Source: Corallococcus llansteffanensis (GTDB lineage: Bacteria > Myxococcota > Myxococcia > Myxococcales > Myxococcaceae). Taken from it: DNA of 38,210 nucleotides. Made by a program: the position numbers and the translations under genes. Positions 3,132-6,218 of this stretch are shown here, in pieces. The stretch lies in NCBI RefSeq assembly GCF_003612055.1, contig NZ_RAWB01000020.1:1-38210 (forward strand), written 5' to 3'. Below the pieces are notes generated by a model. It was not told the DNA's origin and ran no database searches. It saw only the letters and a list, made by a program, of their open reading frames with translations. The first letter of the stretch is position 1. Every line of letters starts with the position of its first letter.

Positions 3132-4031
3132 GTGAAGAAACCCATCCATCCCCGCCCCGCCCGCCTCGCCGTGCTCGCCCTGCTGGGCGTCCTCGCGGTG
3201 GCCGCGGTCATCGCGTACCGCAACGTCCGCACGGCACGCGCCGTGTTGCACCCCGCGCGCCAGTCGGTGAGGCCCCCCGCGGACGGAACGCTCGCGACGC
3301 GCACGGACGTGGCGCTGCGCACGCGCGACGGGCTGACGCTGAAGGGCTGGTACGTGCCGTCGCGCAACCGCGCGGCGGTGGTGGTGATGCATGGCTTCGC
3401 GGAGAACCGCACGCAGATGCTCTTCGAGGCGGAGGCGCTGTCGCGCGCGGGCTACGGCGTGCTGCTCTTCGACTCACGCGGCCACGGTGAGAGCGACGGC
3501 GATTTGGTGACGTGGGGCGACCGCGAGCGCGAGGACCTGCGCGCGGCGGTAGACTTCGTGTCGGGGCGCGCGGACGTGGAGCCATCGCGGCTGGGCGTGC
3601 TGGGATTCTCCATGGGCGGCACCACCGCGCTGCTGGGGGCGCTGGAGGATCCGCGCCTCAAGGCGGTGGCCGCCGCCGGCGCGTACCCGTCCCTGGAGGC
3701 GGACACACGCTACAGCTACGGCAAGTGGGGCCCCTTGAGCGTGCAGCCGGTGCTCTGGACGATGCGCCTGTCCGGCGTGGACGTGGACGCGGTGGACCCC
3801 ATGGCGCACCTGTGTGATTTGAAGGGCCGGCCGCTGCTGCTGATCAACGGCGACGTCGACCCGTACGCGCCCGCGTTCCTCCAGGACGCGCTGTTCCAGG
3901 CCGCGTGTGAACCCAAGGAGTACTGGGTGGTGCCCGGCGCGCACCACGGCGAGTACGCGAAGAAGGCCCCGGCGGAGTACGAGCGCCACCTGCGCGACTT
4001 CTTCGACGCGGCGCTGCTCGGCGGCTCCTGA
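3132..4031 (+). CDS. Membrane-anchored alpha/beta hydrolase
   Basis: This 299-residue protein starts at a GTG at 3132, directly before a basic stretch and one hydrophobic helix (residues 11-28, AVLALLGVLAVAAVIA), so it is probably an inner-membrane-anchored enzyme facing the periplasm. The serine hydrolase triad is visible: nucleophile Ser160 in GFSMGG, Asp in NGDVDP (241 or 243) and His271/272 in GAHHGEY. The oxyanion motif HGF is at 87-89, and GHGESDG at 118-124 is typical of the family. It resembles the broad YqkD/BAAT-like group of alpha/beta hydrolases, whose substrates range from acyl esters to peptides; the substrate here is not predictable. It is transcribed away from the GT2 operon and towards bpt. 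If the bpt slip is corrected, the two genes end 7 bp apart. Confidence 0.88.
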   Translation: MKKPIHPRPARLAVLALLGVLAVAAVIAYRNVRTARAVLHPARQSVRPPADGTLATRTDVALRTRDGLTLKGWYVPSRNRAAVVVMHGFAENRTQMLFEAEALSRAGYGVLLFDSRGHGESDGDLVTWGDREREDLRAAVDFVSGRADVEPSRLGVLGFSMGGTTALLGALEDPRLKAVAAAGAYPSLEADTRYSYGKWGPLSVQPVLWTMRLSGVDVDAVDPMAHLCDLKGRPLLLINGDVDPYAPAFLQDALFQAACEPKEYWVVPGAHHGEYAKKAPAEYERHLRDFFDAALLGGS

Positions 4032-4796
4032 CGCGGGCTCAGGGGGGTCGGGCGACTCGGGCGCGGGCCGCCAGGCGGGTGGGGCGTCCAGCGCGGGCCG
4101 GCCCTCCAGCAGCTCGTGCGGGCGGAAGCCGGCCTTGTAGCGCAGCGAGTCGCACGCGAGCACGCGGTAGCCCAGGTACACGTGCGGGATGCCCCGCTCG
4201 CGCGCCAGCTCCACCTGGAACAGCACGCTCGCCTTGCCCAGCGACAGCCGCGCGTAGGCGGGGTCGTAGAAGAAGTACACCGCGCTCCACGCGCGCGGCA
4301 TCTCGTCGCAGATGCCCAGGCCCACGAGCTTCGGGCCCGCCGGGTCACTGTCGTCGTACCAGGCCACCTCGCGCGCGGACGGGTGCGGGAAGGCGAACTG
4401 GAGCGAGTACTCGCGCGCGCCCAGCTCCGACGCGTCCCACTCGCGCGTCGTCTCCCGGTCCGCGTGCCACGCGCGGTAGAGCGCGAGCCGCTCCTCGTCC
4501 ACGCGCGGCGGCCCCACCTCCACACGCAGGTGCGCGCACGCCGCGCGGGCCCGGCGCTGGCTGCGATTGGGCTGGAAGCCCTCCACCGGCACGCGCAGCG
4601 ACACGCACTCCTGGCACGACGCGCACGCGGGCCGGAAGTACTGCGGCCCGAACCGGCGCCACCCGCGCACGAGCAGGTGCTCGTACTCCTGGGGCGACAC
4701 GTTGCGCATCACCAGCGTCTCCAGGGACGCCTCCCGCCCCGGCAGGTAGCTGCACGGACGCGGCGATTCGATTTCATGTGCCAGCAGGACGGCCAT
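3474..4796 (-). CDS. bpt: Aspartate/glutamate leucyltransferase (Bpt/ATE family) with displaced stop codon
   Basis: Residues 1-252 form a complete bacterial Bpt, which transfers Leu from Leu-tRNA to N-terminal Asp/Glu and feeds proteins into the N-degron pathway. The ATE_N part has PCSYLPGREA and four cysteines (C15, C58, C61, C64 in CASCQEC). The ATE_C part has FFYDP and HVYLGYRVLACDSLRYKAGFRPHELL. The ATG at 4796 has AAAGGAA about 7 bases upstream. Bpt proteins are normally about 240-280 residues, but here the frame stays open to 3474 (440 residues), running antisense through the hydrolase. A TGA at 4039-4041 lies just out of frame directly after a C6 run (plus-strand G 4042-4047); one extra C would end the protein at 252 residues. 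The conserved gene is therefore 4039-4796, and the rest is probably a read-through tail from an indel or sequencing slip. Confidence 0.75.
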   Translation of the reverse strand: MAVLLAHEIESPRPCSYLPGREASLETLVMRNVSPQEYEHLLVRGWRRFGPQYFRPACASCQECVSLRVPVEGFQPNRSQRRARAACAHLRVEVGPPRVDEERLALYRAWHADRETTREWDASELGAREYSLQFAFPHPSAREVAWYDDSDPAGPKLVGLGICDEMPRAWSAVYFFYDPAYARLSLGKASVLFQVELARERGIPHVYLGYRVLACDSLRYKAGFRPHELLEGRPALDAPPAWRPAPESPDPPEPASGAAEQRRVEEVAQVALVLRRGLLRVLAVVRAGHHPVLLGFTRGLEQRVLEERGRVRVDVAVDQQQRPALQITQVRHGVHRVHVHAGQAHRPEHRLHAQGAPLAVAVACVRLQGRVRAGGGHRLEARILQRPQQRGGAAHGESQHAQPRWLHVRAPRHEVYRRAQVLALAVAPRHQIAVALTVAA

Positions 4797-4911
4797 CGGT
4801 GTTCCTTTCCTGTCGGCCCCGGGGCCTCGCGTCAAGCGATGCCTGCCTGCCCGGCGACCCACCCTCCGTCGGAAACGACCCTCCTGCCCGGGTCGTTACG
4901 TATGGGTTGGG

Positions 4912-4927
4912 TGGCACAACGACTGCA
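4912..4927 (+). promoter_or_regulatory. Sigma-54 (-24/-12) promoter
   Basis: The sequence TGGCAC-N6-TGCA matches the sigma-54 consensus TGGCACG-N4-TTGCW at every key base except one T in the -12 box. The GG (4913-4914) and GC (4925-4926) dinucleotides are spaced exactly as required. It points at the small acidic gene whose ATG is at 4973, predicting a transcription start near 4938 and a 5' leader of about 35 bases. Sigma-54 needs an enhancer-binding activator, abundant in myxobacteria, so the gene is probably tightly conditional. No activator gene lies in the window. Confidence 0.7.
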
Positions 4928-4972
4928 AGCCACCGGATGACGCCGTACCGGTTGCGGAGAGGACGAACGCAC

Positions 4973-5149
4973 ATGGCCCGCGAAGAACTGCACCCCGGAT
5001 GGCTGCTCCAGGACCCCGCCGAAGAGTCGGATGTCGTCGCCGACGCGGAGGCCTTCTCCGAGGAGGACGGCCCGCAACTCTTCATCGCTTCGGTGGGCGA
5101 CCTGCCGGACGAAGAGGACCCGTTCGAGTGCGCCATCGCCAGCTTTTGA
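4973..5149 (+). CDS. Small acidic protein, 58 residues, sigma-54 controlled
   Basis: The ORF starts MAREELHPGWLLQDPAEE and ends DPFECAIASF. It has 17 Asp/Glu against a single Arg and no Lys, one Cys near the C-terminus, no signal peptide and no membrane segment. GGAGAGGA lies about 10 bases before the ATG. A near-consensus sigma-54 promoter ends 45 bp upstream, strong evidence that the gene is real and regulated. I do not recognise the family. Acidic mini-proteins of this kind can be protein-binding regulators, DNA mimics or modified peptides, and none of these can be chosen from sequence. It lies divergent from bpt and 208 bp before the second GT2 gene. Confidence 0.6.
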   Translation: MAREELHPGWLLQDPAEESDVVADAEAFSEEDGPQLFIASVGDLPDEEDPFECAIASF

Positions 5150-5357
5150 CGCACCGCGAATGGAGCGGGCAGGCAGCCACGGTGTGGCAGCGCTGTCACG
5201 CCCCGGGCTGAAAAACCTGCGGGGCCTGGCGCAAAACCAGCGGTAGGAACTTCCAAGAAATCGCGAGGCAGGTCCCCGAGCGGCGGAAGGGCCGCCGGTG
5301 CGGGCCCGCCGTCCTGCTGGCTTCTCAGCCGTGGGGCGCCACCGGTATAAGGCCGGC
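5150..5357 (+). other. Spacer between small acidic gene and GT2, with one dyad
   Basis: No ORF is convincing here. The spacer contains a near-perfect 16-bp dyad, GTGgCAGCGCTGtCAC at 5184-5199, that could be an operator or a short stem for the upstream transcript, and a smaller CTGG..CCAG repeat near 5226-5240. No clear -35/-10 or second sigma-54 site precedes the GT2 gene at 5358. Confidence 0.35.
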
Positions 5358-6218
5358 ATGTCCCAGATTGACGTCTCGGTGGTGATGCCGACGTACAAGC
5401 GCGAGAAGGAAGTGGTGGAGGCCATCCACTCCGCGCTGCGTCAGGAAGGCGTCCAGGTGGAGGTGCTGGTCCTGGACGACACGGCCGAGGGCACCGCGCG
5501 GCAGGCGGTGCAAGGCATTGGTGATGCCCGGGTGCGCTACTTCCAGCAGGAGGTGCCGTCACGCGGCCGGCCCGCGCTGGTGCGCAACCACGGGGCCACG
5601 CTGGCGAAGGGCCGCTACCTGCACTTCCTGGACGACGACGACCTGCTGGCGGAGGGCGCGCTCCAGGCGATGGTGTCCGCCCTGGACGCGCGGCCGGACG
5701 CGGGCGTCGCGGTGGGCTGGGTGGTGCCCTTCAGCGAGGACCCGGAGTGGCTGGAGGACAAGAGCAGCTACTTCGAGCGCGTCGCCAGGGTGGGGGCCAC
5801 CACGCCCAACAGCGCGTGGACGGTGGCGCACATCCTGTTCCTGGGCACGCTGTACGTGAACTCCGCGTGCATGGTGCGCCGCGACTACTTCCAGCCGCTG
5901 GGCGGGTTCGACCCGAACATCCCCGTCTACGAGGACGTGGACTTCTACATGCGCGGCATCCGCCGCTACGGCCACGTCTACGTCAACCGCCCCATCCTCA
6001 ACTACCGGGTGGGCAAGCCGTCGCTGATGCACGACCTGGGCAAGAAGGGCGAGAAGGTGGAGAAGTCCGTGGCGGAGTCCAACGCCATCATCCACAACAA
6101 GTACCGGCGCGAGCACGGAGAGCTGGAGTACCGCCTGCTGCAGCTCGCCACGCGCGCGCTCAAGAAGCGCTTCGAATTGACGCGCTACCTCCCCCTCAAG
6201 CTGCCCCGCGCCTCGTGA
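5358..6218 (+). CDS. GT2-family glycosyltransferase (paralogue of the 2186-2995 gene)
   Basis: This 286-residue GT-A transferase begins MSQIDVSVVMPTYKRE. It carries VLVLDD at 36-41, GDARVRY at about 55-61, the metal-binding HFLDDDD at 89-95 and VYEDVDFY about 105 residues later. A 20-residue longer frame exists, but the GT2 core starts exactly at this Met. It is strikingly similar to the GT2 on the opposite strand at 2186-2995, so the two flank the hydrolase-bpt-small-gene block as an inverted pair. Its stop overlaps the start of the decarboxylase (GTGA), implying one transcript and coupled translation. The C-terminal basic tail (RALKKRFELTRYLPLK) may associate with the membrane. Sugar specificity is unknown. 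Confidence 0.92.
   Translation: MSQIDVSVVMPTYKREKEVVEAIHSALRQEGVQVEVLVLDDTAEGTARQAVQGIGDARVRYFQQEVPSRGRPALVRNHGATLAKGRYLHFLDDDDLLAEGALQAMVSALDARPDAGVAVGWVVPFSEDPEWLEDKSSYFERVARVGATTPNSAWTVAHILFLGTLYVNSACMVRRDYFQPLGGFDPNIPVYEDVDFYMRGIRRYGHVYVNRPILNYRVGKPSLMHDLGKKGEKVEKSVAESNAIIHNKYRREHGELEYRLLQLATRALKKRFELTRYLPLKLPRAS

Follow-up and report, generated by a model that had tools for sequence, protein, structure and literature searches.

Our analysis of a 38,210-nucleotide stretch of Corallococcus llansteffanensis DNA (hereafter the window) identified a sigma-54-type promoter element and a small-protein gene that, on sequence comparison, form a well-supported pair maintained in three genera. The C-terminus of the encoded protein (family 1) recurs on a second, apparently separately controlled family of small proteins (family 2), which occurs in the same three genera. 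Our preferred interpretation, to which we assign a probability of only about 0.4, is that a signal-induced, mostly disordered family 1 protein docks via its free C-terminus on a partner common to both families. The features of the locus, in window coordinates, are as follows.

4912-4927, plus strand: sigma-54-type -24/-12 promoter element TGGCACAACGACTGCA, from sequence and conservation.
4938, plus strand: candidate transcription start, placed by the usual sigma-54 geometry, 12 nt past the -12 GC.
4956-4963, plus strand: likely ribosome-binding site GGAGAGGA, 9 nt 5′ of the ATG, from sequence.
4973-5149, plus strand: small-protein gene, 58 aa, from the ORF and its orthologues.
4973-5005, plus strand: conserved N-terminus MAREELHPGWL, 10 of 11 residues invariant in 16/16 Corallococcus genomes.
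5114-5146, plus strand: conserved C-terminal tail EDPFECAIASF-COOH, from AS[YF]-stop in 41/41 proteins and hhalign.
4031-4796 (part analysed), minus strand: divergent neighbour, arginyl-tRNA-protein transferase (ATE; Pfam ATE_C 1e-27, ATE_N 5.5e-22).
5358-6218, plus strand: downstream neighbour, a family 2 glycosyltransferase (GT2; Pfam Glycos_transf_2 4.2e-22).
4868-4879, plus strand: short inverted repeat GTCGGAAACGAC, candidate activator site in Corallococcus only, from a conserved alignment block.

The initial annotation had proposed a near-consensus sigma-54 site, and TGGCACAACGACTGCA indeed places GG and GC at sigma-54 spacing. It departs from TGGCAC-N5-TTGCA by a single mismatch (C replaces the first T), and its seventh base is A instead of the G of TGGCACG-N4-TTGC(T/A), the sigma-54 promoter consensus given in excerpts of PMC9765219. 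This lone match is not above chance: TGGCAC-N6-TGCA with at most one mismatch matches once in the window where shuffles expect 0.69, and 43 of 100 shuffled windows contain at least one such match. The significance of the match comes from the cross-genome comparison.

To define the distribution of the gene, we combined protein searches with synteny. A protein search of 96 genomes of the family recovered an orthologue in 16/16 Corallococcus genomes and 0/80 others, and a profile of the 16 Corallococcus proteins, run against 145 genomes of the order, gave weak matches outside the genus (best 0.0098), several of them aligned at the C-terminus only and some adjoining ATE. ATE itself was searched in 92 genomes and matched in 81, including 65 non-Corallococcus loci; upstream DNA was examined at 60 of these 65 (G023, G024, G025, G028 and G088 were left out), and four g19 genomes of the protein search (G053, G055, G061 and G068) lie outside the 92-genome sample. 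TGGCA[CT]-N6-TGCA followed by a small ORF of 74-86 aa precedes ATE at 25/60 loci, comprising 23/23 from genus g19, which we infer to be Myxococcus, and 2/2 from genus g5; no tail-bearing ORF was found upstream of ATE at the other 35. Synteny thereby revealed three genera where a single-sequence search had seen family 1 in one genus of 26, and it rules out a genus-only orphan.

The resulting set comprises 41 genomes (16 Corallococcus, 23 g19 and 2 g5), in all of which the small-protein gene is divergent from ATE. The homologue conserved in both position and length that the initial annotation called for was recovered in part: position beside the divergent ATE holds in 41/41, whereas lengths change outside the genus (Corallococcus, 56-65 aa; g19/g5, 74-86 aa). 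Corallococcus orthologues retain the ATG and stop, and all their length changes are in-frame (56, 58, 62 and 65 aa).

Conservation of the promoter element is strict. TGGCA-N7-TGCA lies at the same spacing 5′ of the orthologous small ORF in 41/41 genomes, with all nine TGGCA and TGCA positions invariant; the anchor pattern itself requires these bases, yet none of the genomes examined from these genera was dropped for lacking it. Columns flanking the motif (8 before, 9 after) carry 0.10-0.66 bits. The GG at -24 and GC at -12 with 10 nt between them are present in every genome, and the motif start lies 46-63 nt from the ATG throughout (the gap between motif and ATG in the window is 45 nt). Spacer bases are also retained, with C9 and G10 in 38/41 and C12, the C for T ahead of TGCA, in 40/41, which exceeds the sigma-54 requirement. 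The expectation that the -24/-12 bases would not vary freely among relatives was thus borne out, and these comparisons support the original proposal of a dedicated sigma-54-type promoter for a real, unrecognised mini-protein. We infer that this promoter depends on sigma-54 in vivo.

Within Corallococcus, 14/16 motif positions are invariant, compared with 4/30 before and 13/30 after the motif. Other intergenic blocks are equally conserved there, among them the ATE start region, whose best stretches reach 15/16, and a block ending near 4880, so the motif is not uniquely conserved within this genus alone. The extended motif TGGCAYRNCGNCTGCA occurs 17 times in the 16 Corallococcus genomes, 16 of these at the small-protein gene; 15 genomes carry one copy and one carries two, each having one at this gene. 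The 16-genome alignment also retains the A/G-rich block at GGAGAGGA.

Further conserved elements and neighbours were noted around the gene. CGTCAAG at 4830-4835, 5′ of the ATE gene, hardly varies among Corallococcus and g19 genomes, and its ATE-strand reading, CTTGACG, is possibly an ATE promoter or operator. The Corallococcus alignment also contains two conserved non-coding blocks at 5170-5260, past the small ORF and ahead of the glycosyltransferase gene (GCCACGGTG[TC]GGCA...CTGTC and GTAGAAACTTCC). A hydrolase gene also appears among the scanned neighbours, besides ATE and GT2.

Comparison of the upstream regions revealed no enhancer site common to the genera 5′ of the promoter. The inverted repeat GTCGGAAACGAC, about 64 nt 5′ of the candidate start, belongs to a conserved block in the 16-genome Corallococcus alignment and is not retained in the other genera compared. 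Upstream matches to the Nla28 and NmpR consensus sites were no better than in shuffled sequence, leaving membership of the gene in either regulon without support.

Analysis of the protein revealed conserved ends around a variable middle. Corallococcus members start MAREEL[HL]PGWL and end with F or Y, 2-3 residues and then A[VI]AS[FY]; g19/g5 members start MAR[DH] or MTRN, sometimes 2 residues further in. Across genera, no more than a MAR[ED]-like start is kept. The middle permits no confident alignment between genera. The tail terminates in A-S-[Tyr/Phe]-COOH in all 41 proteins, mostly as [DE]F[DE][FLS].[VIF]AS[YF] in g19/g5, or as PLEFGVASF, and a g19 clade around G076 carries DFDLEFASY with Phe replacing Val/Ile. 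A comparison of the Corallococcus and g19/g5 family 1 profiles by hhalign gave P 9e-7.

The composition initially reported for the window protein (58 residues, 17 acidic, one Arg and a single Cys) was confirmed, and it proved a poor guide to the family. Only the Corallococcus proteins are strongly acidic (14-19 acidic and 1-2 basic residues, versus 8-18 acidic and 5-11 basic in g19/g5), and a Cys stands at that place in 3/41 proteins. We ruled out acidity or DNA mimicry as the feature that the family conserves, because charge is not kept between genera, and Cys chemistry was ruled out by the rarity of that residue.

Mean pN/pS values in Corallococcus were 0.06/0.25 for the N-terminus, 0.31/0.42 for the middle and 0.17/0.23 for the tail. 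Over 120 Corallococcus pairs the ratio had a median of 0.63 and a maximum of 1.9, and the protein is therefore fast-evolving, above all in its middle; by these sequence measures, the N-terminus is under real constraint and the rest under modest constraint. The AlphaFold2 model of the window protein has a mean pLDDT of 64.9 and a pTM of 0.19, and since its input alignment comprised 8 sequences, the low pLDDT is a weak sign of disorder. The last block reaches pLDDT 77, with a weak short C-terminal helix at 50-56. Neither the window protein nor 25 orthologues matched Pfam or NCBIfam at the curated cut-offs, and the PDB contained no relative of the 25 orthologues.

A DNA pattern for the tail plus stop, followed by a looser pattern, was run on the genomes and uncovered a second gene in g19. 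The looser pattern returned 64 rows in 92 genomes, versus 2 matches for a reversed control; 57 rows have a true stop, and every one of these falls at a gene of family 1 or family 2; the other 7 end TGG/GGG. In g19, family 2 reads MFR.DA..(Q/H)G...G.WAPEEGRG...GG.W, with (D)D[LF][DE]F[QRE][IV]AS[FY] as its usual ending, while Corallococcus copies mostly end DL[DE].VASY or D(L)DGVASY-like; this body differs from that of family 1. With a wider profile, family 2 is present in 39/41 genomes (23/23 g19, 2/2 g5 and 14/16 Corallococcus) and in 0/51 genomes outside the three genera at E < 1e-3. The copy in the window's own genome is cut by a contig end, as contig ends also split some g19 copies, and the copy in G062 (L145, G062:C1:6143738-6143985) shows an apparent frameshift, real or an assembly error, that puts start and tail in different frames. 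Family 2 gave no Pfam match (17 members) and no NCBIfam match (2 members).

Profile comparison confined the likeness between the families to their ends. When g19/g5 family 1 was aligned to family 2 by hhalign, the last 11 columns of each aligned and nothing else (P 2.2e-5); the Corallococcus family 1 tail also matched family 2 over the tails only (P 2.8e-4), and the A1 and A2 profiles alone reached a probability of just 41. The tail match is short and could reflect convergence. No neighbouring gene is common to the family 1 and family 2 loci.

In the g19 and g5 genomes examined, family 2 sits in a cluster: upstream of it are, in order, an ECF sigma gene, a gene for an anti-sigma-like zf-HC2/TPR/CHAT protein and a 60-aa ORF, and downstream is the gene of an M24 peptidase lipoprotein. 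The gene order comes from L197-L200 and the domain assignments from one genome, L197. RtcR, RtcB and kinase genes are also among the scanned neighbours, and the 60-aa ORF has a PPE..(P)GL-like motif. The CHAT (caspase-like) domain occurs on the zf-HC2/TPR protein in g19 and, by layout, in g5, and is absent from the one Corallococcus protein scanned (L209); such loss or gain of a protease domain between genera may merit study. Cluster loci are L197 (4220-13217), L198, L199, L200, L209, L221 and L222. A box, CCAAGG-N14-CGT[CT]T, lies 5′ of family 2 in 11/11 loci scanned from Corallococcus and g5, and boxes like it precede the ECF gene. This box may be the promoter of the cluster's ECF sigma factor.

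In the mechanism that we favour, the family 1 gene would be transcribed by sigma-54 RNA polymerase with an enhancer-binding protein, and the product would be small, cytoplasmic and for the most part disordered. It would act through its free C-terminus, a short linear motif (usually [DE]F[DE]F.[VI]AS[FY]-COOH) docking on a partner protein. Family 2, which has the same tail and an apparent ECF-sigma promoter, would inform that partner of a different signal; bodies and promoters would give each family its own signal, and the tail with its free carboxylate would provide the contact. This docking interpretation is based on two distinct alternative-sigma promoters, different bodies and one tail, a combination that the sample shows in three genera and in no others. 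The partner could be a protease (making the tail a degron), an adaptor or a receptor. The two families probably constitute a real signalling device; the narrower proposal, that in all three genera a sigma-54-driven and an ECF-driven small protein present the same tail to one receptor so that two unrelated inputs converge, is possible and put forward tentatively.

The tail itself has two alternative explanations. If the tail were a C-terminal degron, both small proteins would be short-lived substrates of Clp, Lon or a PDZ-type tail protease and would act through their bodies, in line with a hydrophobic end that is always at the free C-terminus (41/41) and with bodies that differ between the families. 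Active bodies should be conserved, however, and these diverge past alignment between genera while the tail stays, making this explanation rather unlikely. In the fragmented assembly of the window organism, a search for tmRNA, whose ssrA tag would be the natural comparison for the tail, gave matches below the cut-off only. It is less probable still that the proteins are precursors from which a peptide signal or a modified peptide is made, the C-terminus being the released or modified core and the variable body the leader. Ten to twelve conserved C-terminal residues behind a variable stretch resemble precursor design, and the gene after family 2 encodes an M24 peptidase lipoprotein; yet maturase, radical SAM and transporter domains are absent among the nearby genes scanned at both families' loci, most tails have no Cys or Thr to modify, and the Corallococcus proteins conserve their N-terminus better than their tail.

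The promoter element also admits other readings. The spacer conservation beyond the sigma-54 consensus (C9 and G10 in 38/41, C12 in 40/41) and the lack of an enhancer site conserved between genera would suit another regulator's operator with a chance likeness to -24/-12. Such an operator would have to account for exact GG-N10-GC geometry, fixed direction and a start 46-63 nt from the ATG in all 41 genomes, as well as for TGGCA and TGC agreeing with the consensus excerpted from PMC9765219; moreover, spacer bases in orthologous promoters of one gene can persist by descent, and we regard this reading as improbable. A chance promoter-like site before a non-coding ORF, as the expectation of 0.69 sites per window might suggest, is contradicted by conservation over three genera and scarcely credible.

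Promoters of this type are well known. The protein family and the shared tail appear to be undescribed as far as our searches reach; among the open-access papers that these searches returned, no title or abstract treated the small protein or an ECF/CHAT small-protein cluster in Myxococcus. As described in excerpts of PMC9765219, PMC11841059 and PMC7910581, myxobacterial sigma-54 (RpoN) -24/-12 promoters, such as those of Nla28 and NmpR targets, share with this element the TGGCA...TGC core and the GG-N10-GC spacing. Relative to the target promoters in those excerpts, CTGCA here replaces TTGC(A/T), no recognisable Nla28 or NmpR sites lie upstream, and the target is an undescribed small protein.

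Families of fewer than 90 aa with conserved ends only escape ordinary homology search. As a sigma-54 promoter that is very clean, present in single copy and paired with a strictly conserved small target, the element offers a rare handle on an activator and its signal, and a tail shared by two separately controlled small proteins would serve as direct bait for a common partner. In E. coli, IraP, IraM and IraD are stress-specific anti-adaptors, several of which report to one adaptor. The myxobacterial proteins are likewise small and would be separately induced and converge on one target, and by analogy they may act in an anti-adaptor-type manner. To our knowledge, IraP, IraM and IraD have no common tail, whereas a common C-terminal motif is present in families 1 and 2. 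We know of no C-terminal short linear motif that [DE]F[DE]F.[VI]AS[FY] matches. As with PDZ or TPR ligands and C-degrons, its recognition would likewise need the free carboxylate and the last aromatic residue.
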